DNA of 64,000 bases from assembly GCA_001803165.1 (NCBI GenBank), contig MHAZ01000019.1, positions 124,001 to 188,000 on the forward strand, read 5' to 3'. Both the position numbers and the translations under genes were made by a program. Below are positions 1 through 56,326 of the stretch, in pieces (position 1 is the first letter of the stretch; the number at the start of each line of letters is the position of its first letter). This stretch comes from Stygiobacter sp. RIFOXYC2_FULL_38_25 (GTDB lineage: Bacteria; Bacteroidota; Ignavibacteria; Ignavibacteriales; Melioribacteraceae). Below the pieces are notes generated by a model. It saw only the letters and a list, made by a program, of their open reading frames with translations. It was not told where the DNA came from and searched no databases.

Positions 1-446
1 CTATCAACATAAATAACACCAAATTTTTCATTTTTAGTCATCAACGGAGCGCACATAATTGTTTGTAGTTTCAAATTAATTATGCTCTCGCTTGGATCGC
101 TCGAACCATTAAGTGCCGATTCAATAAATTTTGATTGTCCGGTTTCATAGACATCATTAACAACAGTTGTGGATAATTTGAACAACTCCTGAGGCAGTGT
201 TTTCCCTTCTGCATCTAAGCACAACATGTATTCAAGGTTGCCGTTTTCACTTTTTAAAACTATAAAACCACGTTCCGATTTTGTAATATTTATCGCATTA
301 TTTAGAACTAATTCAAGTACCTCTGACAATACTAAAGAGCTGTTAATTTTCTTTAATATGTCCAGCACTAACTCAAGTTTGGAATTATTGCTTTCCCTTG
401 GTTTAATTGTTTCTTCTATATTTTGTACAAATTCGGAAAGTTTCAA
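1..446 (-). CDS. GAF-domain signalling protein (partial, N-terminus only)
   Basis: This frame is not in the ORF track because it runs off the left edge; I translated it from the reverse strand. It is open from the window edge to the stop upstream of the kinase gene's end. The product begins with about 30 polar residues, followed by a GAF-like domain with motifs such as LVLNNAINITKSERGFIVL and MCAPLMTKNEKFGVIYVD. I chose the TTG at 446 because a GGAG lies 5 nt upstream; a second TTG at 482 is possible but has no ribosome site. It follows the kinase-ATPase-TPR gene after 37 nt, so the two are probably co-transcribed. In related bacteria such GAF proteins continue into sigma-54 activator, cyclase or histidine-kinase domains. 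Which one applies here lies outside the window. Confidence 0.75.
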   Translation of the reverse strand, partial: MKLSEFVQNIEETIKPRESNNSKLELVLDILKKINSSLVLSEVLELVLNNAINITKSERGFIVLKSENGNLEYMLCLDAEGKTLPQELFKLSTTVVNDVYETGQSKFIESALNGSSDPSESIINLKLQTIMCAPLMTKNEKFGVIYVD

Positions 447-33150: not shown

Positions 33151-34396
<1,246 letters not shown>

Positions 34397-34422
34397 AGCC
34401 CACCATTTTTCGACTTTGGGCT
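34397..34422 (-). terminator. Terminator after tRNA-Ser relic A
   Basis: The minus strand folds AGCCCA...TGGGCT followed by TTTTTCTTTTT. It lies just 3' of the oldest tRNA-tail copy and is probably the original chromosomal terminator of the tRNA-Ser gene. Confidence 0.65.
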
Positions 34423-34522
34423 AAATCCATCGTTTCTGGCGGAGAGTCAGGGATTCCTAAGAAGGAGTCCCTTCGGGAGAACCCCGGAGACTTATATTTT
34501 ATTTCGCCTAGTACAAAATAAA

Positions 34523-34548
34523 AAAGCTCACATGCACATATGAGCTTT
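34523..34548 (-). terminator. Terminator after tRNA-Ser relic B
   Basis: The minus strand reads AAAGCTCA...TGAGCTTT followed by TTTATTTTG. It differs in the loop from the next copy at 34635-34660. Confidence 0.6.
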
Positions 34549-34634
34549 TAGCGGAGAGTCAGGGATTCCTCCGAAGGAGTCCCTTCGGGAGAGCCCCGGA
34601 GACTTATATTTTATTTCGCCTAGTACAAAATAAA

Positions 34635-34660
34635 AAAGCTCACATACACATGTGAGCTTT
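34635..34660 (-). terminator. Terminator after tRNA-Ser relic C (left att copy)
   Basis: The minus strand stem AAAGCTCACA/TGTGAGCTTT (10 bp) is followed by TTTATTTTG. It sits directly 3' of the 71-bp left attachment copy. Confidence 0.65.
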
Positions 34661-34661
34661 C

Positions 34662-34732
34662 GCGGAGAGTCAGGGATTCGAACCCCGGAAGGACTTACAT
34701 CCTTAACGGTTTTCAAGACCGCCGCATTCAAC
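34662..34732 (-). repeat. Left attachment copy of element 1 (tRNA-Ser 3' part)
   Basis: These 71 bp are identical to 50078-50148 and end at ATTCAAC, after which the sequences diverge. The copy holds the tRNA from the D-arm side of the anticodon stem to the 3' end and lacks the first 16 nt, so it is not a working gene. Confidence 0.9.
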
Positions 34733-34958: not shown

Positions 34959-35960
34959 ATGTTCTTAATTAAAAGACGTAATGGTATTTATCATCTGTAT
35001 TATAAGTCTAAGGATGGTAAAAGAAGAACCATATCTACAAAAAAGAACACAAAAAGTGATGCGTATAAATTTCTAACAAACTTTGAAAATGAAATCGAAA
35101 AAAGGGCTAATGAACAAACAACTACCATCAACTTAGAAAGATTTAGGTTAGAGTTTTTGCGAAATTCAGAACGCACCAAGAGTGAAAAAACTGTACGTGT
35201 TTATAAAACTACCTTTAACTATTTACAAAAATATTTAGGTAATGTAAATATTGATACGATCACAAATAATGACATTAAAAAATATCTTGACCACCGCTTA
35301 ACCTCTAGTTCTGTTTTTGCGGCTAGAAAAGATGTTATTAATCTCAATGGGGTTTTCAAATATGCTTTAGAAGAAAACTACACCAAAATAAATCCATGCA
35401 AAGGCATTAAGCAGTTTAAAATTGCTGAAAAACAACCCGTCTACTTTTCAAAACAAGATTATGAAAAATTGTTAAGCATTATAGATAACGTTGAGTTTAG
35501 AAATTTGGTTATGATTGCTGCTAACACAGGACTTAGACAAATGGAGCTACTTTCTTTAAAATGGACGCAAATAGATTTGCAACACAAAAACATTTTATTA
35601 GACCAACGAGTGCATATAACTAAATCAAAGAAAATCAGAAGTGTACCAATTAACAATAATATCTACCCTGTTTTATTAGAAATGCAAAGACTTGCAGCAA
35701 CTGATAATCTGTTTTCTTACACTGGTAGAAATATATCTGTATTAATTTCACAAAAATTCAAATCCTATGTACTAAAAGCTGAATTAAACCCGTCATTACA
35801 TTTCCATTCTTTAAGGCATTCTTTTGCAAGCTGGTTAGTACAGGGTGGTGTAAATATATTTTTGGTTAGTAAGTTATTAGGGCACGCTGATATTAAAACC
35901 ACACAAATTTATTCACATCTAAGGCAAGATGATTTATTAACATCTGTTAACTGTATTTAA
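34959..35960 (+). CDS. Tyrosine recombinase (integrase of element 1)
   Basis: This 333-aa integrase has an N-terminal AP2-like arm-binding region (IKRRNGIYHLYYKSKDGKRR), a SAM-like core-binding domain and a catalytic domain. The R-K-HxxR-H-Y set is visible in NTGLRQMELLSLKW, HITKSKKIRSVP, FHSLRHSFASWLVQGG and LLGHADIKTTQIYSHL. It lacks the extra helix and LLEGxG patch of integron integrases, so it is not IntI. It is close to the integrase of element 2 and probably recombines at the anticodon region of tRNA-Ser. It points into the element from its left end. Confidence 0.92.
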   Translation: MFLIKRRNGIYHLYYKSKDGKRRTISTKKNTKSDAYKFLTNFENEIEKRANEQTTTINLERFRLEFLRNSERTKSEKTVRVYKTTFNYLQKYLGNVNIDTITNNDIKKYLDHRLTSSSVFAARKDVINLNGVFKYALEENYTKINPCKGIKQFKIAEKQPVYFSKQDYEKLLSIIDNVEFRNLVMIAANTGLRQMELLSLKWTQIDLQHKNILLDQRVHITKSKKIRSVPINNNIYPVLLEMQRLAATDNLFSYTGRNISVLISQKFKSYVLKAELNPSLHFHSLRHSFASWLVQGGVNIFLVSKLLGHADIKTTQIYSHLRQDDLLTSVNCI

Positions 35961-40268: not shown

Positions 40269-43200
40269 CTAAAATTTATCGAGAAATCTTCTTCTTTTTT
40301 CTCCTTCTGCATAGTTCAATGCGGCTTCAATTTCATCGTTGATATATTTTTTTATCGGGATTAATTTAATACCTAAATCCAATCTATTGGTAATATCCAA
40401 TATCCTCCGCCAATTTAAAGCCATCCTATCACCAAGACTTTCGTTTCCAGTTGTTGAACCTCCATTACCAATCCACCATATCTTGGAATAAATATTAACA
40501 TCTTGTGTTAATTTCAAAAAATGTATATAGGCTTCTTCAAAGAAATCACTTTTTGTGTGTCTCAAAATGTCAACAATCATATTCATCCTAATCAAATCAT
40601 TATAATTGGCATTTATGTAATCTATTATAAATTCATTGCTTTTTTTTATGTTCTCTTCTTTTTTTATTCCAGAGAAAAAAGAATTACAAAAATGATCTAA
40701 TATGCCCATATAAATCTCTTTAGCTGCAATAAAATCAAACACCTTAAATAGTACATCTTGTATATCCTCAACTAGCCAAACTACAGAAAAACTTTTATGC
40801 TCATAAGAACGGTGACGATCTTTTTGTGCATATAAATATTCAATGTATTCCAAAAGGAAATTTTTATCTATTCTAAGTATAGATAGTAATTCACTACCAC
40901 CATAATCATAATGTGAATCAAACCTTTCTTGTTGAATATATGCTTCCTTCACTGTTTCGAAATCATTTTTCAAATATTCACTATGCTTACTAAAAAAGTT
41001 GTGTGTTATTCTAATGGATAAATTCTCACTCTTTCTTTTGCTAACAATTATTTTGAGAATTTTAGTGAATAAATTAGCATCACACTTTAAGTATTTTAAC
41101 AAGTCAGTGAAGTGAATGAATATATGATCATTAATGTCGTTAACTGCTGATACAAGGTTTTTACATTGCGTTTCATCAACCAAATTATCATCCAAATAGA
41201 AAAAGTACTGCAACTTCCAGGTTGCTGATTGATTGTAATCTTTGCTTGAGATAGCAGTCCATATTGATTGAGCTGTATTTTTACTAACTAATAATTTTTG
41301 AAAAGGCAAGTGGGGTACGTATTGGATATCATTATTGTGATTAATTATATATTTAAGAAATTCGATGCCTAATTCATAATTTCTCTTAAAATTTTCATCT
41401 ATTACATAATCAAATGAATTTTTTATACTGTAGGTATTCTTCTCCCAGTTTAATAAATAATTATAATGTTGATAAAATTCAGCAAACGAATCCAAAGAAT
41501 CAAAAACGAAGTATTCGCGAACTTCACTCTCTTTTAATTTCTCATATTCTGCATAATCTTCAAATTCATAAGATTCTTTGTCTCTAAGACGGTCCCAATC
41601 AATTTTTAAGTAAACAAGATATAATTCGTTTAAATATGTACTTTTAAGAATATCAAATGTCTCATCTTGAATATCATTTTCAATGAACCACCGTATTTGT
41701 GATTGCACATAATGACAATGTTGAAAATTAGAATTTGTTAAGTGATTTTTAATTATTTTCAAAACATATATTACATCAAATTCCATCACCTCTTTTACAA
41801 CATCTGGGGTGCGTTGAGAATATTCATTTAGTAGTTGAGTATATGCCTTAACATTATTGTCAAAATCTTTATCTATTTTATCCCATATTTTTTCACGAAG
41901 TATTTTAGTAAGATTATTTAATGGGAAAGGATAATCGTACCAATAGAAAGAATAATTTCTTCCGCCTTTAGTATGATGATATTTATATTGGAGAAAAGAA
42001 GTAGCTATGGCTGGGAAAGTAATTTCGTAAATACTCTCAGATCTATCACTTTTTTCTAATAATAGATTTATCAAAATCTCTTGTCTCTTATATCCCATCC
42101 TTTGATCGTCGGTATCGAACAGCAAATGCTCCCTAATGGTATATATTAATTCGGGAAGTGTTTCGGGTAGTTTTCTTGCATACTCGTAAGCAAGTTCTAA
42201 TGCGTCTTTTAACTTGACAGGGTAATTAAAAAAATTACCGAGTAGTTCTATTATTTTGTTACGATTATATGAAAACTGATTTGTTTCATATTCTGTATAA
42301 TATTTTGTTGCGATGGGTTCGGGAATTGTATTTATATGATTATAAATAAATTCAATAGTTTCTTCCTCTAAATAAAACCAAAATGTAGATAATAGGTTGA
42401 ATGCTTTCTCATCGATAGTTATTACACTTTGCCAATAATTTAATAAAATTGGCTTCACTTTTTCGATTACATTATGATATCCAAAAGTATTATTTGCTGG
42501 TATTATTGTATCTCGAAATCGTTCTATATTAGAATCATAGTAGTATTCTAGAAGAACACTAAAAGAAAGAGTTCCATCCTTGATAAATGACTTATAGAAA
42601 AAATATGTGGATAAATTTTGTTCAGATATTTTCGCATACTCAAATTGTAGTTCTACTAATTCTAACTTATTCAATATATCAATAGATTCGATAAAGTCAT
42701 CATAAGCTAGATCAAACTTACTTAATAAAGAAGCGCATCTTGTTTTATCTTTGTATGGTATGGTATAAAAAAATGCAATTAAGCCTAGTGATTTTAAATT
42801 CACTGATTTTGTTAAATCTATGTTGTCAGTTACGAACCTAGCAAAGTATTGTTCAAATAATTCTGAGACATCAGATAATGCGCACAAATTTTGTTCTTGT
42901 ACAGCAAGTTTAGCCGCCATAATTGCTAAACGTGGATTTCCATCAGCTATTCTGACAATTTCTTTGTGATAATCAGGATTGTATATTTTGAATGATTCGC
43001 TTTTGATAATGTCAATTATCTGCTCATCAGTAAATTTATTGAGATGTAATTCTTCAGGTTTAAATTCAATACATCTATTGGCTATCTCATTTAGCGCATA
43101 GTCTCTTACAGTAATAATGATTTTTAAATTTCCTTTTCTGCTTGATTTGAAATATCCTATAATTTGATTAAAAGAATCAATCCTATTAGCATCATCTACG

Positions 43201-43994
43201 AAAAGTATATAATCACGTTTTGTGTCAAAGTGTTGATATAAATCTTCCAATAAAGAAGCGCTTTTAAATGAAACGCAATATGCAGTATAGTTGAGGTTTG
43301 TTAATAAAAATGAATTAATCCCTTCTAATGCTAATTTTGTTTTACCGACACCGGGCGAACCAGTAATAATAACGAAATTTGATGCGCTGATTGAATTTTG
43401 TAATTGTTTAAGTTCATTATCTCTGTGTACGAACTCGTTATCAAGAGGAGTCGCAACACTTTTAGCTGCTTTGTTGTATTCTTCAATGAATTGTGAAATT
43501 GATACAATTTGACCAGTATCAAGAGGCAAACCAAGGTATTGATTAGATAAATCGCGGTGATGATATAATAATTCTATGGAAAGCTCATCTAGTAGGTAGA
43601 GACGTAAAGAAATTCTTTTCCCTTTTAGTAAGTCTTTCAGTCCATCAACCTCTTGAACTGAAAGCTTAAAATTTGCACATAATATTATTTCTTCAATATC
43701 TTTTAAAGGGATTTTTGTTGTTTTATAATCCAAACATTTTTTTATATCATCTTCCAACTTGTTTTTATTTGAAATGTTTGTTGTATGTTCTACGAAAATA
43801 TATTTACCATTTGGCAATAATTTAAAAGCATCTGGTGTTCCTTTAATGGATTTTTGCTTGCCGGACTGGCTTCCAACACGTGAAAATGCGATGTAATTTT
43901 TATCACGCAACGCTAAAAAAGTATCGCATAATTCTTGGAAAACAGCTTCATTGATTTCAATTAAAGCATTCTCAACAGATTGTAATCTTTTCAT
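40269..43994 (-). CDS. Cassette 2: nuclease-STAND NTPase (nSTAND3/Avs-like)
   Basis: This 1241-aa protein has three parts. Residues 1-150 resemble a PD-(D/E)xK nuclease: SRVGSQSGKQKSIKGTPDAF with D55, then KYIFVEHTT with E69. Residues 185-480 form a STAND NTPase: FVHRDNELKQLQ, P-loop GSPGVGKT (212-219), Walker B YILFVDDANRID, and a winged-helix region. The remaining 760 residues are a long helical array without a recognised fold. Nuclease-NTPase-repeat is the plan of Avs and related STAND immune sensors, in which the C-terminus detects a phage protein and oligomerisation activates the nuclease. Phage defence is therefore the best guess. At about 3.95 kb it is a very large integron cassette. 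Confidence 0.78.
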   Translation of the reverse strand: MKRLQSVENALIEINEAVFQELCDTFLALRDKNYIAFSRVGSQSGKQKSIKGTPDAFKLLPNGKYIFVEHTTNISNKNKLEDDIKKCLDYKTTKIPLKDIEEIILCANFKLSVQEVDGLKDLLKGKRISLRLYLLDELSIELLYHHRDLSNQYLGLPLDTGQIVSISQFIEEYNKAAKSVATPLDNEFVHRDNELKQLQNSISASNFVIITGSPGVGKTKLALEGINSFLLTNLNYTAYCVSFKSASLLEDLYQHFDTKRDYILFVDDANRIDSFNQIIGYFKSSRKGNLKIIITVRDYALNEIANRCIEFKPEELHLNKFTDEQIIDIIKSESFKIYNPDYHKEIVRIADGNPRLAIMAAKLAVQEQNLCALSDVSELFEQYFARFVTDNIDLTKSVNLKSLGLIAFFYTIPYKDKTRCASLLSKFDLAYDDFIESIDILNKLELVELQFEYAKISEQNLSTYFFYKSFIKDGTLSFSVLLEYYYDSNIERFRDTIIPANNTFGYHNVIEKVKPILLNYWQSVITIDEKAFNLLSTFWFYLEEETIEFIYNHINTIPEPIATKYYTEYETNQFSYNRNKIIELLGNFFNYPVKLKDALELAYEYARKLPETLPELIYTIREHLLFDTDDQRMGYKRQEILINLLLEKSDRSESIYEITFPAIATSFLQYKYHHTKGGRNYSFYWYDYPFPLNNLTKILREKIWDKIDKDFDNNVKAYTQLLNEYSQRTPDVVKEVMEFDVIYVLKIIKNHLTNSNFQHCHYVQSQIRWFIENDIQDETFDILKSTYLNELYLVYLKIDWDRLRDKESYEFEDYAEYEKLKESEVREYFVFDSLDSFAEFYQHYNYLLNWEKNTYSIKNSFDYVIDENFKRNYELGIEFLKYIINHNNDIQYVPHLPFQKLLVSKNTAQSIWTAISSKDYNQSATWKLQYFFYLDDNLVDETQCKNLVSAVNDINDHIFIHFTDLLKYLKCDANLFTKILKIIVSKRKSENLSIRITHNFFSKHSEYLKNDFETVKEAYIQQERFDSHYDYGGSELLSILRIDKNFLLEYIEYLYAQKDRHRSYEHKSFSVVWLVEDIQDVLFKVFDFIAAKEIYMGILDHFCNSFFSGIKKEENIKKSNEFIIDYINANYNDLIRMNMIVDILRHTKSDFFEEAYIHFLKLTQDVNIYSKIWWIGNGGSTTGNESLGDRMALNWRRILDITNRLDLGIKLIPIKKYINDEIEAALNYAEGEKRRRFLDKF

Positions 43995-50077: not shown

Positions 50078-50148
50078 GCGGAGAGTCAGGGATTCGAACC
50101 CCGGAAGGACTTACATCCTTAACGGTTTTCAAGACCGCCGCATTCAAC
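50078..50148 (-). repeat. Right attachment copy of element 1
   Basis: These 71 bp are identical to 34662-34732. The copy overlaps the intact tRNA-Ser and supplies its 3' part. Confidence 0.9.
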
Positions 50149-50165
50149 CACTCTGCCAACTCTCC
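50079..50165 (-). tRNA. tRNA-Ser (anticodon TGA)
   Basis: This 87-nt gene has the 7-bp acceptor stem GGAGAGT/ACTCTCC, the D-arm TTGGCAGAGTGGTTGAA, the anticodon stem-loop GGCGGTCTTGAAAACCG with TGA at 50129-50131, a long variable arm and the T-arm GGGGTTCGAATCCC. No CCA is encoded. It is the only complete copy in the window and lies exactly at the junction of the two integrative elements. Its 3' side lies in the 71-bp repeat of element 1 and its 5' side in the 51-bp repeat of element 2. Confidence 0.95.
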
Positions 50166-50168
50166 AGT
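50118..50168 (-). repeat. Left attachment copy of element 2
   Basis: These 51 bp are identical to 56276-56326. The copy overlaps the intact tRNA-Ser and supplies its 5' part and 3 nt of leader. Confidence 0.9.
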
Positions 50169-50193
50169 CAAAAACAACTGATTTTTGAGGCGT

Positions 50194-50201
50194 CAAACAT
50201 A
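50194..50201 (-). promoter_or_regulatory. Candidate -7 element for tRNA-Ser, inside element 2
   Basis: The minus strand reads TATGTTTG, an exact match to the Bacteroidota -7 consensus TAnnTTTG, 28 nt before the tRNA 5' end. A -33 TTG is not evident. If used, the tRNA is transcribed from element-borne sequence. The rest of 50202-50421 shows no gene. Confidence 0.45.
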
Positions 50202-50421
50202 CAAAAGTTTATTTAAAAAGGGTACTTGGTAGTAACTTTTGTAGTAACTTTTTAGCCACCAAAAACAATTCAATGAACGCACTTTATAACAGAAAACCGC
50301 TTGAAGAAATTGCAAGGGGTCGAATCCTTATAAAACTTCAAACGGCTTTCTAAAATCAAACTTTGTTTTTTCGACCAATACAATTTTTTCAACTAAAAAT
50401 AATTTAGCATTTCAAAAATCA

Positions 50422-50652
50422 TTAGTCAACAGTTTCCCACAAATCCACGTCGCCACTTTCTATAATTTTTGATTCAAATACATTACCATCCTTAGAAAAT
50501 ATTGTTTGATGAATTTCTCTATGCACTACATGAACCCTTCCGTCTTTATCTTTTTGGTCAATAATATCAGTAACCATTATTAACTTACTCTCAGATAAAA
50601 CATTTTGAAGTTTTGATTCGATTACTTCAAGTCGGCTTTTTAGATTTCTCAT
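50422..50652 (-). CDS. Hypothetical small protein (76 aa)
   Basis: I do not recognise this protein. A helical N-terminus (LKSRLEVIESKLQNVL) precedes strands (KLIMVTDIID, RVHVVHREIHQTIFS). Its ATG overlaps the stop of the previous gene (TAATG), so translation is coupled. It is the last gene of the element 2 operon. Confidence 0.5.
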   Translation of the reverse strand: MRNLKSRLEVIESKLQNVLSESKLIMVTDIIDQKDKDGRVHVVHREIHQTIFSKDGNVFESKIIESGDVDLWETVD

Positions 50653-50939
50653 TATTTCGCCTCATTCAATTTCTTTTCTAATTGCTCTAACCTTTCCTCA
50701 TATTCAACAGCTTGGATATTGTTTAGGTAGTTGCTACACAAATAGGAGAGGTCTTTTGCTTTTTGGCTTTCCACTTTCCCGTCAATAAAACTTCTGATTA
50801 GTTGCGATTGAATCCTTAAAACGTCTCTAGCTCGCATCCGTTTCCTTCGTGGTAGGATAATAGAAAGGGTGGGGGTGTTTTGATTATCCTTAGTCATTTT
50901 AATTACTTGTAGCTTTTTTTCTTGTTGTTTTGCGTCCAT
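50652..50939 (-). CDS. Hypothetical small basic protein (95 aa)
   Basis: The track ORF opens at 50984, but MDAKQQEKK at 50939 is the more plausible start because the upstream residues are hydrophobic and atypical. The product is basic in the middle (LPRRKRMRARDVLRIQSQLI) and ends in a coiled-coil (VEYEERLEQLEKKLNEA). It may bind nucleic acid, but no family is recognised. Confidence 0.5.
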   Translation of the reverse strand: MDAKQQEKKLQVIKMTKDNQNTPTLSIILPRRKRMRARDVLRIQSQLIRSFIDGKVESQKAKDLSYLCSNYLNNIQAVEYEERLEQLEKKLNEAK

Positions 50940-51033
50940 TAGTATCTCGATTTTAATAAATATCACCCACAGCTTGAAAATCATCGGCTCTTAATCGTAA
51001 ACGAAAAAGAGCCGACTCCCACTAACCAACCAC

Positions 51034-51669
51034 TCAGAGGTTGTCGTAATAAAATCTGTTTTTCGCATTATTATAGAGAATGCCTTCTAGCTCTGCCCAT
51101 GTTCTTTGTTCTAATTCTTTGAACAAAAAAGATAAATGATGTAGAGCGTTCGGGATATTGTTTTCGTGAAAAGTTATAAAGTTTTTGGCTTTTCCAGTTT
51201 CGCGAATATAAATTATATCCGCTTCGTTTAAATCGTGCAAAATTTTCATTGCATCTATAAGGGTTGACAAGTTTTTCTCACGATAGTTGCTTACTGCTTC
51301 CCTCAAGTCTAACAACCTTCTTTCTTTAGCTACATTGAGTGCTTCTGTATATCGAGCATTTAAAATTGTGATTGCTTCGCGTTTCGCTTTTGTTTCCAAT
51401 TTGTGTTCTTTGATTAAATCCGAATATTCAGCTTGTAGTTTTTGGACTTTCTTCTTTTGCGTTTCAATTTCATCGGGAGAAGATTCGCCTAAATGAAATG
51501 AAACGTTTAAATTATTTAGTTTTTTTAATTCCGGGGCTAATCTATCGTTAAGCTCCGAAATTGAACTATCATGTAACAAGACTTCTTTTTCAAGACTTGA
51601 TATTTTTTCTCTGATAGAAAGAGGTTCCGAATATTTTTCGGCAGGTTTAATATGTTTTAAGTGTTCCAT
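51034..51669 (-). CDS. Coiled-coil hypothetical protein (211 aa)
   Basis: Most of residues 15-150 form a coiled coil (LEKEVLLHDSSISELNDRL, EIETQKKKVQKLQAEYSDLI). The C-terminal part (LHHLSFLFKELEQRTWAELEGILY) is helical. No signal or catalytic motif is visible. It lies 12 nt after the replication-organiser gene in the same operon. It might be an accessory replication or scaffold protein; this is inference. Confidence 0.6.
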   Translation of the reverse strand: MEHLKHIKPAEKYSEPLSIREKISSLEKEVLLHDSSISELNDRLAPELKKLNNLNVSFHLGESSPDEIETQKKKVQKLQAEYSDLIKEHKLETKAKREAITILNARYTEALNVAKERRLLDLREAVSNYREKNLSTLIDAMKILHDLNEADIIYIRETGKAKNFITFHENNIPNALHHLSFLFKELEQRTWAELEGILYNNAKNRFYYDNL

Positions 51670-51681
51670 GTTGCTACTCCT

Positions 51682-52509
51682 TTAGTTGGTTGGAAAGTGT
51701 GAATTTATTATTTGAGCAATATTATAAGCTGTCGCACGTTGGTCGAGTTTTCCGACTATATTTTTAATTCTATTGAATTGACTAACGATTGTTCGAGGAT
51801 TCATGTTTTCTTTAAGCCATTTATCGTTGATTTGTAAACAGCCCTTGAAAAATGTTCTAAAGTCAGTCATGCAACTTTCGTTACTAAAATTTCCATTCTC
51901 GCTTTTATAGTGCGCAAGAAGTTTCTCAATAAACTTTAATTCATTTTCTTTATCAATTAATGAATAGGGGTATCCTTTCACTTCAAGATGTTCTTCAATA
52001 AAAACATCAAGTAGGTTCTGGGTTAAATTTTCGGTGATGCCCGTTAGTGGATTCTTAACTTTCTTTATATTCTTTTCTTTCTTGTTTGTCCGAAAGTTGT
52101 TCGGAGTCAGTTCCGAAAGTTGTTCGGAATCCATGTCATTATATGAGAGGGAAAGCCTTGATTTTACTGAGGGATTTTGTTCCGTAGAATTTTGATATTT
52201 TGACCAATTTAAAATTGAAATTATGGTTGTTACTTTTCCGCCTGTGTAGGCAATCATTTTCCTAAGAACCAACAAATCCAGAAATTTTTTAACTGTTTTA
52301 TCGCTCCACTTCCAACGTTTCGATAAAGTTAGTTGTGAGTAACATAACTCACCTGCTATTAATTTAATCTCGATTCCGCGAATAAATACAGTCCGTTCTT
52401 TATAAGATGCCAATAATAGAAGGTCAAGCCACGCTTGCGATTTTGTGAACTTTTCCGAGAAATAAAATTCATTCTCCATTATTTGCCGATATAGTTTTAT
52501 GTAATTCAT
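51682..52509 (-). CDS. Replication-organiser-like protein (phage O/DnaD N-terminal type)
   Basis: In this 275-aa protein the first 105 residues match the winged-helix domain of phage replication organisers. YIKLYRQIMENEFYFSEKFTKSQAWLDLLLLASYK leads into ELCYSQLTLSKRWKWSDKTVKKFLDLL and ends in TTIISILNWSKYQ. The C-terminal half is polar and may contact a helicase loader. In phages this protein recruits helicase to the origin. In element 2 it points to autonomous replication after excision. It is preceded by an 84-aa gene with 1 bp between them. Confidence 0.75.
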   Translation of the reverse strand: MNYIKLYRQIMENEFYFSEKFTKSQAWLDLLLLASYKERTVFIRGIEIKLIAGELCYSQLTLSKRWKWSDKTVKKFLDLLVLRKMIAYTGGKVTTIISILNWSKYQNSTEQNPSVKSRLSLSYNDMDSEQLSELTPNNFRTNKKEKNIKKVKNPLTGITENLTQNLLDVFIEEHLEVKGYPYSLIDKENELKFIEKLLAHYKSENGNFSNESCMTDFRTFFKGCLQINDKWLKENMNPRTIVSQFNRIKNIVGKLDQRATAYNIAQIINSHFPTN

Positions 52510-52510
52510 T

Positions 52511-52765
52511 TTAACTTATCGGCTCACAGAGGGCGCTATTTATTTCAAGTAATAACTCAATGTCTGATTCGGTTTCGCATTGAGTAGCCTCATAAAGAAA
52601 ATCAGTTAATATCAACAAGTCGCATTGTACTGTTTGCGATAGTTCGATTAGTTTTTCTTTAAGCTGTGGGTTTTTTATTTGTTCAATTGCTTTTGTAATC
52701 GGTTCGGTTTTTAGTAATAAAATTCGGTTGCTTTCGTAAAGTTGCAAGAGATTACTTAAATCCAT
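52511..52765 (-). CDS. Hypothetical small acidic protein (84 aa)
   Basis: An all-helical, acidic protein (LLQLYESNRILLLKTEPIT, LLILTDFLYEATQCETESDIELLLEI). It is directly coupled to the replication-organiser gene. Family not recognised. The AGG before ATG is weak. Confidence 0.5.
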   Translation of the reverse strand: MDLSNLLQLYESNRILLLKTEPITKAIEQIKNPQLKEKLIELSQTVQCDLLILTDFLYEATQCETESDIELLLEINSALCEPIS

Positions 52766-52786
52766 ATTAACCTCATTTTGCTAATA

Positions 52787-52836
52787 ACGAGAAAACCCGT
52801 TTGATGTCGTGGCGGAAACATCAAACGGGTTCTCGT
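52787..52836. terminator. Long perfect-stem hairpin in element 2
   Basis: ACGAGAA.ACCCGTTTGATGT pairs with ACATCAAACGGGTTCTCGT (about 19 bp, one bulge), with a 10-nt loop. It lies between the coiled-coil gene (52933) and the 84-aa gene. It may end transcription from upstream genes, although the downstream T run is short. Confidence 0.6.
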
Positions 52837-52932
52837 AAAAATTTATTGTTTGTCTCGCCACGAAACTTTATCAATAATTCTCTAGCGAAATTAAAGTTGT
52901 CTCAGGATTGAAAAAATCCGAGGGGCGGATTT

Positions 52933-53430
52933 TTATTTACGTTTTTTTTGCTTTGTAGTTTTATTGGAGCTGGTTTCGCTTCTGTGGTCTAAATATTTTT
53001 TGTAAAATATTGCAAATTCATCAGAGTCAAATTTCAGTGAAAGTTTTTGAGCTGCCTTTTGTGAGTTTATAATATCCTTTAGAAATTTGGGCGGATTTCC
53101 GATTCCGCTAATCACTCGAAACAAAAGTGTTTTAAGGTCAATTTTTTCTCCTTCATTTCTATACAGTTGATTTTTTTTGCCTTCAAATTCAAATGGAGGA
53201 GAAAATCCGACGCTATCAGTTAAATTAAAAATCATTTTTTCATAATAATAATCAGTAGTGAGATTTTTATTTATTCTCAGTAATTCGCTTTTGTACCATT
53301 CAATTTCTCTTTCCAGAAATTCAATTTCTGATTGTAGTTCCTTAATGGAAAGATTCATCTCTCTTATTTGAGAATTCTGTTTAGCTAACTTTTTTAATAA
53401 TTTATTTTTTTCATTATCAACGTTTTTCAT
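52933..53430 (-). CDS. Coiled-coil hypothetical protein (165 aa)
   Basis: Residues 8-55 are a strong coiled coil (LLKKLAKQNSQIREMNLSI, ELQSEIEFLEREIEWYKSEL). The remainder has a PPKFLKDI loop and a lysine-rich tail (KTTKQKKRK). No family is recognised. It begins 22 nt after the TPR gene ends. Confidence 0.55.
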   Translation of the reverse strand: MKNVDNEKNKLLKKLAKQNSQIREMNLSIKELQSEIEFLEREIEWYKSELLRINKNLTTDYYYEKMIFNLTDSVGFSPPFEFEGKKNQLYRNEGEKIDLKTLLFRVISGIGNPPKFLKDIINSQKAAQKLSLKFDSDEFAIFYKKYLDHRSETSSNKTTKQKKRK

Positions 53431-53451
53431 TATTCCGCCACGAATAGAAAT

Positions 53452-54348
53452 TTATCTTCTCCCCTTCTTTAGAAGTTCAGCTTTGCGAAAGTATATATTT
53501 TGTTTTTCAATATTACCTAGTTTGCCGTATGCTTTGCTCAAAAGTGCATAGGGCTCAGATTGCTTAGGATTCTTATTAAGTGATTCCATGCTGTATTTGA
53601 TTGACAAATTATAATCAGTTTGAACGTAGCATACCTCCGCAATCAAATTATAAAGCATAACACTTGCAAAATCTTTTTCAATGGCAAAATCCAAAACATC
53701 TTTGGCGCGTATAGTATCCGCTATCTGTAAATAACTATATGCTAATTCATAACCGCATAGTGGATGTTCATCGTTCCTGAATTCATACTCGTAATTTTGG
53801 ATTGCTTTACCATACTGGTGCAATTTGAAATATAGACTTCCAAGTGAGGAATAAATCCTTTCATTCGGTTCTAATTCTACTGCTTTTGTGTAATATGAAA
53901 TAGCCTTATCTAAATCGTTTGTGTTTTCATATATACTACCATATCCCTCATAAATTTTGGCATCTGTTGAATCTATAAAAATAGCTTCATCAAGATATTT
54001 TTTCGCAATTTTGTAATTTTTAGTGTAAATGTTGCAATCAGCTAACTGCAAAAAAGCATCCTTAAAAAATGGTTTTCTATTAATTGCTTCAAGGAAATAT
54101 TTTTCGGCTAATTTTAATTTTTGTTTGTTATTCTCAAGAAGGTATCTACCTTGATAATGTAAGCCGAGATAGTAGGGCGCTTCTGAATTTTTGGGATACT
54201 TTTTCATTAAAGACTCTAGTATAGAGATTCCAATTTTCGCAGAGCCTCGAAATAATTCTTCTCTACCTCTTTCTAGTAATTCATCTTCAAATTGTGCAAA
54301 AATCGAATTACTTATAATAATCAACAAAAAGAATAATTTTTTTTTCAT
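53452..54348 (-). CDS. Exported TPR protein
   Basis: This 298-aa protein has a signal peptide, MKKKLFFLLIIISNSIFAQ. Seven or so TPR units follow (ESLMKKYPKNSEAPYYLGLHYQG, YYTKAVELEPNERIYSSLGSLYF). It is probably periplasmic or surface-associated. It is unusual cargo for a small replicating element and may be a fitness gene carried along. Chromosomal Ignavibacteria encode many similar proteins. Confidence 0.75.
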   Translation of the reverse strand: MKKKLFFLLIIISNSIFAQFEDELLERGREELFRGSAKIGISILESLMKKYPKNSEAPYYLGLHYQGRYLLENNKQKLKLAEKYFLEAINRKPFFKDAFLQLADCNIYTKNYKIAKKYLDEAIFIDSTDAKIYEGYGSIYENTNDLDKAISYYTKAVELEPNERIYSSLGSLYFKLHQYGKAIQNYEYEFRNDEHPLCGYELAYSYLQIADTIRAKDVLDFAIEKDFASVMLYNLIAEVCYVQTDYNLSIKYSMESLNKNPKQSEPYALLSKAYGKLGNIEKQNIYFRKAELLKKGRR

Positions 54349-54630
54349 AGAAAACTCATTTTTTTGATTAAAAGTCGTTCGATTTACTCATTCTTTTTCT
54401 TAAGAAACAATTGAATAGGATTTGTCATTTATTTATTCCCTCGCTGTGGTAATATCATAATTTGGAGAATAAAAAGCATCAATTTTATTTTCCTCACAAT
54501 TGTTAATTACTTTGATATTTTATTTCCATGTTTCACGCATTTCCACAGGAATACAGCCCTCTTTTCCTTGTGGTTGGAACTTTGTACTGGCTAAATGCAA
54601 AGTACGCTTTAAAACGCATTTAAAGACGTT

Positions 54631-54918
54631 TCAATGTTTTGGTTTCTCAAACTTCATTGCAATAGTATCGTAAACAAATCTTTGAGAAACATCGAGAATC
54701 CTCGCAAGTTCACTAATATTTTCACCATTATATTTTTTTGCTATATAAGCTCGCTTCATAGAAATTAAATGAGACTCTGAGAAATGAACAGGGGTTTTAC
54801 TAAAAATCGAATATAGTTTGATAAAGGTCTCTTTCCCGAAATCTTCCATTATGATTTTTGCATCACCTCTTAAATATTTTGCAGGTTGCTCTATTTCTTC
54901 AATCCAGTTTAGCGACAT
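54631..54918 (-). CDS. Mor-like transcription activator (95 aa)
   Basis: The C-terminal half SMKRAYIAKKYNGENISELARILDVSQRFVYDTI matches the helix-turn-helix of the Mor/MuC family of phage late-gene activators. The length (95 aa) is a little below Mu Mor. It is the likely regulator of the minus-strand operon of element 2, or of a helper phage. It overlaps the preceding 77-aa gene by 10 bp. Confidence 0.7.
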   Translation of the reverse strand: MSLNWIEEIEQPAKYLRGDAKIIMEDFGKETFIKLYSIFSKTPVHFSESHLISMKRAYIAKKYNGENISELARILDVSQRFVYDTIAMKFEKPKH

Positions 54919-55142
54919 ATAACCTCACAAAACGTAATTGAATTATTATGATTAAACTTTCTCAGAACACTTTTGATTTTTGTTTTCACTCCATAGACTT
55001 GAAATGATTGCTTGCTAAAATCGGTAAGGTCTATTGATTGCTTGATACTTGCACCCACAGCTTTCAAGGCATGGATTAAATTTGCATCCAAAGAATAATT
55101 ATTTGTAGGGATAAGACAGAATATTGATTCAATCGTTTTCAT
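54909..55142 (-). CDS. Hypothetical small protein (77 aa)
   Basis: I do not recognise this protein. A strand-helix pattern (SIFCLIPTNNYSLDANLIHALKAVG, SFQVYGVKTKIKSVLRKFNH) with no motif. Its end overlaps the Mor-like gene, and it starts 21 nt after the integrase stop, so all three are probably one transcript. Confidence 0.5.
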   Translation of the reverse strand: MKTIESIFCLIPTNNYSLDANLIHALKAVGASIKQSIDLTDFSKQSFQVYGVKTKIKSVLRKFNHNNSITFCEVICR

Positions 55143-55163
55143 AGTGCTGCTCCTGTTATGTTG

Positions 55164-56174
55164 TTAGTTGTTTAATACGTTAATAGCATTTTGTAAATCT
55201 TCGCTTCTTAAATGTGAATAAATTTGAGTAACCTTAACCGAACAATGCCCTAATAGTTTTGATACTTGGAGAATTGATACTCCCCGTTGCACTAACCAAC
55301 TCGCAAAGGTATGCCGTAGTGAATGGAAGGTTAGGTTGTCATTTATTGCAGCTTCTCTCACATAACTTTTAAACTTTTGTGAAATGTAATTCGGGTTTAT
55401 TGCTTTCCGGTTCAACGTAAAGACTAACTCACTTGCTTTAGTAAGTTCCCGTTCGACAATTATTTGCATTGCTTTGATTGACAAAGGAATCATTCTAACC
55501 TTTTTTGATTTTGTTATATGGCTCTGATTAGTTAGGGTTAGGTATCTATCTTTGAAATTGATTTGCGACCATTCAAGGGTGAGGAGTTCCATTTGCCTAA
55601 GTCCGGTTTGCATTGCAAAAACAATTAAATCGCTGACGTCCTTTTCTTTGACCTTGTTAAGTAAAGTTTCAAGCTCCAACTCGCTAAAAAACAATGGTTG
55701 TTTTTCCGGTAAACGAAACCGTTTAATTACTTTACAAGGATTTTGCAATAAATAACCTTCCGATATTGCTTTGTTGAAAAGACTATTGAGGCAAATTAAA
55801 TCCTTTCTCGCTTGATAGATTGAACTGTTTTTAATTCTTTGCTCAAAATAATCGTTCATTCTTGAAGGTGTTATTTCTGTCAAGCTAACCTCTCCAAAGA
55901 ATTTTTCGACAAAGCTGTGGGTTAATGAATATGCTTTATGAGTTTTTGGGGTGTGAACGGTCTTCGAGTAATCGAGAAACCTTTGATTAAATTCTTGAAG
56001 TGTTATAGGAGTGAGCTTTTGGAGTTTTCTTTGTTCTAATTCTCGCTCGAATTGGCTAAGAAATTTTAGTGCTTCAGATTTAATTTTTGTACGTGTTGAA
56101 ATTCCGGTTCGTTTACCATTTGGCTTAATGTAAACGATATAATATTTACCGTTGGCTCGCTTAGTGAGAATCAT
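55164..56174 (-). CDS. Tyrosine recombinase (integrase of element 2)
   Basis: This 336-aa integrase is colinear with the integrase of element 1 (NGKYYIVYIKPNGKRTGISTR; TGLRQMELLTLEW; HITKSKKVRMIPL; FHSLRHTFASWLVQRGVSILQVSKLLGH; TQIYSHLR). The R-K-HxxR-H-Y set is complete. It lies at the right end of element 2, opposite to the position in element 1, which fits the use of the 5' tRNA part as attachment arm. It is not an integron integrase. Confidence 0.92.
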   Translation of the reverse strand: MILTKRANGKYYIVYIKPNGKRTGISTRTKIKSEALKFLSQFERELEQRKLQKLTPITLQEFNQRFLDYSKTVHTPKTHKAYSLTHSFVEKFFGEVSLTEITPSRMNDYFEQRIKNSSIYQARKDLICLNSLFNKAISEGYLLQNPCKVIKRFRLPEKQPLFFSELELETLLNKVKEKDVSDLIVFAMQTGLRQMELLTLEWSQINFKDRYLTLTNQSHITKSKKVRMIPLSIKAMQIIVERELTKASELVFTLNRKAINPNYISQKFKSYVREAAINDNLTFHSLRHTFASWLVQRGVSILQVSKLLGHCSVKVTQIYSHLRSEDLQNAINVLNN

Positions 56175-56275
56175 AGTTGAAACTCCTCTAAGTGCGATAA
56201 AAGAATTATGATTTGGTAGTTAAAAAAGTAGTGAGTGAGGGGAAAAAGTTTGATTTGTGAGGAATTTTACTGCTT

Positions 56276-56326
56276 CTTAACGGTTTTCAAGACCGCCGCA
56301 TTCAACCACTCTGCCAACTCTCCAGT
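56276..56326 (-). repeat. Right attachment copy of element 2 (tRNA-Ser 5' part)
   Basis: These 51 bp are identical to 50118-50168. The copy holds the tRNA from its 5' end to just past the anticodon stem and is not functional. A weak promoter-like TATTGTTG lies upstream on the minus strand, probably the original host promoter of this tRNA gene. Confidence 0.88.

Follow-up and report, generated by a model that had tools for sequence, protein, structure and literature searches.

The window, by which we mean the whole 64,000-nucleotide stretch of DNA that was analysed, contains an intact tRNA-Ser(UGA) gene, a clean displaced copy of most of that gene, and two short tandem units in which the 3' tail of the same tRNA is split by a palindrome. 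The question raised by this locus is what produced the broken tails. The original prediction took them for footprints of earlier insertions at tRNA-Ser, with an integrase-type island as the inserter and a REP-like sequence inserted in the T loop. The features are as follows.

50078-50165, minus strand: intact tRNA-Ser(UGA), the target gene (ARAGORN; Rfam RF00005, 57.8 bits)
34662-34732, minus strand: unbroken displaced copy of tRNA-Ser nt 18-88, with 100% identity over nt 18-88
34630-34661, minus strand: terminator-like hairpin GCTCACATGTGTATGTGAGC after the clean tail, followed by a T run
34551-34661, minus strand: unit 1 (111 bp), made up of terminator hairpin, short spacer, decayed nt ~49-70, palindrome and intact nt 71-88
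34569-34590, minus strand: 22-bp palindrome TCCCGAAGGGACTCCTTCGGAG of unit 1, exact type, between tRNA nt 70 and 71 (T loop)
34520-34550, minus strand: diverged copy GCTCATATGTGCATGTGAGC of the clean-tail terminator-like hairpin, after the unit 1 tail
34439-34550, minus strand: unit 2 (112 bp), laid out as unit 1, with the palindrome slightly decayed
34457-34478, minus strand: decayed palindrome copy TCCCGAAGGGACTCCTTCTTAG of unit 2, at the same nt 70/71 site
about 34393-34430 (by sequence), minus strand: a different terminator-like hairpin, GCCCAAAGTCGAAAAATGGTGGGC (~34398-34425), after unit 2
55164-56174, minus strand: second integrase (PF00589)

On the minus strand the order is tRNA-Ser(UGA), a 15-kb integrase element, the clean copy of nt 18-88, unit 1 and unit 2. 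The units correspond to the tRNA-Ser tail copies at +94..111 and +206..223 of locus L183. Two 3' tails in 111/112-bp steps had been predicted, and they are real; nt 71-88 (GAATCCCTGACTCTCCGC) are exact in both units and the preceding nt ~49-70 are slightly decayed in both. The palindrome is indeed located in the T loop, but it is inserted between nt 70 and 71 and does not replace the loop. With its arms, the unit 1 palindrome has a predicted fold of -22.2 kcal/mol. The unit 2 palindrome ends in CTTAG instead of CGGAG and has 2 mismatches over 18 bp (match C19:158459). Each unit had also been credited with a different terminator. This is true of the third hairpin (GCCCAAAGTCGAAAAATGGTGGGC); the first two are near-identical diverged copies of each other. 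The hairpin after the clean tail folds at -12.9 kcal/mol (z -3.9; fold of 34636-34668). The one after the unit 1 tail is weak, at -5 kcal/mol for 34527-34558, a stretch which misses the end of the hairpin. To judge by its sequence, the hairpin beyond unit 2 is probably the original terminator of the tRNA. No recognisable remnant of a nuclease gene was seen by eye in the spacers of units 1 and 2. The units are not a chance occurrence, because the 18-nt tails are exact and in register and because the same arrangement is present at about 14 tRNA loci of the genome.

Tyrosine-integrase islands at tRNA genes restore the tRNA and leave a displaced copy. The 15-kb element has a tyrosine integrase at 34959-35960 (PF00589, E 1.5e-31). 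The copy at 34662-34732 is its right end; it is the native 3' part of the tRNA and pre-dates the arrival of the element. A 1241-aa protein within this island (40269-43994) has nSTAND3/NB-ARC-like NTPase matches and is possibly a defence gene. A second integrase element seems to adjoin tRNA-Ser on the 5' side (window 50166-56323). An unbroken displaced 5' head of the tRNA, at ~56278-56323, adjoins the second integrase; tRNA-Ser is thus apparently bracketed by two integrase elements.

The DNA flanking the 44 tRNA genes of the source genome was searched for displaced tRNA pieces. About 14 of the 44 loci contain such pieces, broken by this or another palindrome. At Asn, Met, Leu, Ala and Ser loci it is the T loop that is interrupted, at Pro the anticodon arm, and at three Ser genes the D loop. 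The window palindrome, at up to 2 mismatches, is present in 15 copies in 4.4 Mb, compared with 0 for the reversed control. Other tRNAs broken by the same palindrome were found: six of the 15 copies lie in displaced tRNA tails (Ser (two), Cys, Lys, Arg and Gly). Copies are also found away from tRNAs, namely within ORFs, in intergenic DNA and at attC-like sites. Those within integron attC-like sites (L001, L006, L026 near position 1501; GCCTAAC...GTTAGGC cores, identified by eye) apparently occupy the variable terminal part of the site. A dispersed repeat unrelated to tRNA-Ser is excluded as an account of the 111-bp unit, since the tail copied at each tRNA is that tRNA's own.

At several of these loci an ORF of ~80 aa encoding a GIY-YIG protein lies between the intact tRNA and the displaced piece. 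A Pfam search of the genome gives ten GIY-YIG matches: two are in long proteins and eight are small, and 7 of the small ones are at tRNA genes or displaced tRNA pieces. Two mirror forms exist. One has the order tRNA, nuclease, displaced tail; the other has the order displaced head, nuclease, tRNA. Tail copies in several units carry terminators, as do the window units. The GIY unit at tRNA-Ser(CGA) has a counterpart shortened by deletion at tRNA-Ser(GGA), with 56/59 identity through the 3' end of the latter. The displaced tails of these two genes are swapped (L057, G000:C7:158866-161030), as if the ~2-kb segment between them had been inverted at the palindromes. tRNA-Asp (L073, G000:C19:251908) is ~49 kb away from its displaced half and GIY-YIG unit (G000:C19:202477), which suggests a large island between them.

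Relatives contain the corresponding full-length units. G046, a member of the same order but of a different family, carries three 306-bp units in tandem downstream of its tRNA-Ser(UGA), all with the nuclease gene intact. Each runs from the GIY gene through nt 49-70 and a palindrome to nt 71-88; the break is at nt 70/71, as in the window. Tandem units with T-loop palindromes and no nuclease are found at tRNA-Ser(UGA) of G044 and G049 and at tRNA-Val of G014. Taken with the tRNA-Ser(GGA) deletion form, these make the window units most simply nuclease-less derivatives, and most simply they stood beside tRNA-Ser before the 15-kb island inserted. Units are also present or absent between congeners. 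The tRNA-Asn GIY unit is present in the source genome and absent in G001, G004 and G005; the tRNA-Pro GIY unit is present in the source genome and G002 and absent in G003-G005. At tRNA-Cys, a GIY unit is found in G001 and G003, a nuclease-less form in the source genome, and neither in G004 and G005. Synteny of the upstream genes holds at the Asn and Cys loci and, at the Pro locus, in G003-G005.

A profile was built from five nucleases of the source genome and searched in named genomes, which gave 80 sampled loci. These span Bacteroidota, Ignavibacteriota, Cloacimonadota, Neomarinimicrobiota and several Patescibacteria. The nuclease relative is within 500 bp of a tRNA gene on the same strand in 68 of the 80, mostly at 0-70 bp; of the 12 without a nearby tRNA, several are cut by contig ends. 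In a second draw across the phylum, 62 of 148 genomes had matches and 25 of 29 loci were near a tRNA. Since the profile was made from tRNA-linked members, the association holds for this clade of nucleases and not for all GIY-YIG proteins.

A displaced tRNA piece (3' tail or 5' head) is found on the far side of the nuclease at 57 of the 68 tRNA-linked loci. Strict split-fragment chains, with at least 20 matched nt, were obtained at 38 of the 68 and at none when a tRNA of another isotype was used. Among these 38 inserts, 29 have a hairpin stem of at least 6 bp, as against 9% of random stretches; no target base is lost in 24, and target bases are lost in 14. Between the palindrome and the nuclease gene lies a fairly constant 10-20 nt of tRNA sequence (median 13 nt). 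The hairpin typically splits the D loop, the anticodon arm or the T loop across phyla, so that the predicted REP-like insert, while exactly where it was placed, is no one-off. Two palindromes are present in some displaced pieces, and in some an arm is replaced instead of cleanly interrupted. The break point, termed X here, varies within Arg-associated nucleases (D loop, anticodon loop, variable region, T loop). Palindromes are genome-specific and do not travel with the nuclease; CCTGCCTGCCGGCAGGCAGG is found in Flavobacteriaceae and TCCCGA...TCGGGA elsewhere. At L154:2392-2468, ARAGORN reports a tRNA-Ser(GGA) which has tRNA-Pro-like ends and the palindrome TCCCGA...TCGGGA as anticodon arm; it is probably a palindrome-broken tRNA-Pro mis-called as a gene. 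Arrays of three units are present at several loci, and arrays reach eight units in G108. The G108 array (L246, G108:C34:6300-10700) has eight GIY-YIG units in ~365-bp steps, each with a terminator, a tRNA tail piece and palindromes.

All five query nucleases match PF01541 (5/5, best E 1.2e-16), and no NCBIfam model matches them. The Y, YxG, R, H and E columns are conserved in the nuclease alignment. By sequence, the closest solved structures are UPF0213 and SLX1, which likewise have a single catalytic domain of ~80-100 aa. SLX1 is a structure-specific nuclease. To our knowledge, nucleases of the UPF0213 / SLX1 type are not known as mobile elements targeted to tRNA. As judged from substitution rates, the nucleases are evolving under purifying selection: between two species, the Pro nuclease has dS 0.46 and dN 0.08, and dN/dS is about 0.06-0.3 between tandem copies. 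On the nuclease tree, tRNA isotype requires 31 changes, compared with a mean of 51.8 when shuffled (minimum 45 of 300). Nearest neighbours from different phyla have an isotype in common in 20 of 73 cases, with 8.7 expected. Host phylum clusters too (21 changes versus 31.7) and the tree is poorly resolved, and we therefore claim target-linked lineages and not a history independent of the host. Carriage of the nuclease by phages was considered and rejected, as a scan of 2.9 million viral contigs with the bacterial nuclease profile found no relative.

The reading we prefer, with a probability of roughly 0.7, is that a minimal homing-type element specialised on tRNA genes gave rise to the window units, which would be its decayed tandem copies without the nuclease. 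That they are relics of GIY-YIG units is very probable, that such units spread in the manner of homing elements is reasonably probable, and a role of the palindrome in blocking renewed cutting is put forward tentatively. The original prediction of footprints at tRNA-Ser is supported by the comparable full-length units of G046; its choice of an integrase-type island as the inserter is not borne out, since both integrase-linked copies are unbroken and the full-length broken units carry a GIY-YIG gene. The pattern, as read from the sequences, includes the unit anatomy, the association with tRNA, tandem arrays, presence and absence, selection on the nuclease and clustering by target tRNA.

A full unit would bring the remaining 3' part of the tRNA (the 5' head in the mirror type) and, in many cases, a terminator; it would further have one GIY-YIG gene of ~80 aa, a copy of ~10-20 nt of the tRNA sequence from the other side of X, and a short palindrome at X. 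Cutting at X, homing, mobility and the blocking role of the palindrome are what we infer from this anatomy. The nuclease would cut the tRNA gene at or near X, and repair from an element-bearing allele would insert the unit there. The tRNA half carried by the unit would complete the host half, and the tRNA would stay functional. The host's own half would be pushed aside as the displaced piece; interrupted by a palindrome, it would no longer be a clean target, much like a homing site that contains an intron. Tandem units beside the tRNA would build up through further rounds of insertion or through unequal recombination of the copies; against the homing reading, ordinary unequal crossing-over could produce the arrays. 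Deletion of the nuclease gene would leave relics of 100-110 bp like those in the window.

Cutting at X is suggested by the fixed interruption point with ~13 nt of tRNA on the nuclease side and by the conservation of the catalytic motifs; the blocking role is suggested by the position of the palindrome. Insertion does not destroy the tRNA gene, as an intact tRNA is beside the nuclease at the 68 of 80 and 25 of 29 loci. While the displaced copy is interrupted by the palindrome, the intact tRNA retains an uninterrupted site X, and self-cutting must therefore be limited in some way. This counts against the preferred reading, as do the shifting X of the Arg-associated nucleases, the displaced pieces with two palindromes or a replaced arm, the 14 of 38 inserts with loss of target bases, the palindromes that do not follow the nuclease and lie outside tRNAs too, and the lack of a nuclease remnant in units 1 and 2. 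Recoding of the carried half to escape its own nuclease was rejected as a solution, since carried and displaced halves are mostly identical.

The palindrome could instead be mobile in its own right, as a REP- or MITE-like sequence moved by a RAYT-type transposase with a preference for tRNA loops; the displaced pieces would then be harmless sites and the nuclease unrelated. This is unlikely, although it retains some weight because copies of the palindrome occur in ORFs and attC-like sites as well as in intergenic DNA. The genome has four Y1_Tnp genes, and palindrome families are specific to genomes and not to nucleases. However, the two RAYT-like genes examined have other palindrome families alongside, insertions keep a fairly constant 10-20 nt from the nuclease-side edge, and the displaced pieces of the two integrase elements of the window have no palindrome. 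A RAYT link of the window palindrome itself was rejected, as, with three of the four Y1_Tnp loci inspected, the RAYT-like genes proved to be flanked by other palindromes. A more doubtful proposal is that small GIY-YIG nucleases aimed at tRNA loops make up a widespread bacterial class of tRNA-restoring homing elements whose cutting plants short palindromic repeats at fixed genomic sites; part of the dispersed REP-like palindromes of these phyla may then be marks of break repair and not transposon copies.

It is improbable that the units are attR relics of old integrase islands later struck by a REP-like repeat. The same tRNA does bear two integrase elements with displaced copies, but those copies (34662-34732 and ~56278-56323) are free of palindromes. 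They are only two cases; they support a special link between palindromes and nuclease-type units. Broken units of full length, interrupted at the identical base of this tRNA, encode a GIY-YIG nuclease and lack an integrase, and comparable arrangements are found at tRNAs of every kind in different phyla. Least probable is a functional RNA in which tail, hairpin and terminator aid tRNA processing or termination or act as a sponge. In its favour, the units all retain a terminator-like hairpin together with an extended T arm that can fold. Against this, congeners differ in whether a given tRNA has a unit, the window units are in decay, conservation of the hairpin sequences does not extend from one genome to another, and the 5'-head types occur upstream of tRNAs.

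Comparable systems are known. In the mitochondria of Allomyces macrogynus (atp6) and Glomus (atp6, atp9, cox2, nad3), mobile endonuclease ORFs are associated with duplicated gene ends; a free-standing endonuclease gene with a substitute 3' end enters an essential gene, and the native end is displaced downstream (PMC3630166). Going by the accessible part of that report, the likeness to the tRNA units is that the substitute end completes the host gene and the native end is pushed aside. The same part indicates that the fungal ORFs are in mitochondrial protein genes, with a LAGLIDADG enzyme in the atp6 case, and have a diverged inserted end, whereas the units described here are in bacterial tRNA genes, encode GIY-YIG nucleases and carry a mostly identical half. 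It describes no junction palindrome (PMC3630166); the tRNA units have one and also have a mirror (5') type. SegB of T-even phages is a tRNA-associated GIY-YIG homing endonuclease which drives tandem amplification of a tRNA-containing segment (PMC13096335). It resembles the nucleases studied here in being a GIY-YIG enzyme near many tRNA isotypes and in the tandem amplification. It differs in residing in phage genomes, and the accessible part of the source reports neither a displaced half-tRNA nor interruption by a palindrome (PMC13096335). Because the unit anatomy matches the substitute gene ends of Allomyces and Glomus, and because SegB is tRNA-linked and amplifying, a homing-type element is favoured.

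REPs are short dispersed palindromes, some of which are inside genes (PMC3733652). REP / RAYT sequences and the palindromic elements of Rickettsia share these traits with the palindromes described here, which differ in being tied to displaced tRNA pieces and a GIY-YIG gene. Tyrosine-integrase islands differ from the tRNA units in bearing an integrase, in their unbroken copies (the two window examples) and in being kilobases long. The combination of an endonuclease with a substitute gene end is already known from mitochondria. The bacterial tRNA version is apparently undescribed, on the weak evidence that bacterial elements of tRNA, GIY-YIG gene and displaced tRNA were not found in the open PMC literature, outside which most subscription journals lie.

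If the preferred reading is true, these units represent a class of mobile element that is very small, with one gene in ~300 bp, and is widespread in tRNA genes, among others those of Bacteroidota, Ignavibacteriota and Patescibacteria. Elements of this class could account for many small GIY-YIG ORFs beside tRNAs, for broken tRNA copies, for tandem arrays and for some mis-called tRNAs. They would also allow a direct test of how short palindromes reach exact sites.
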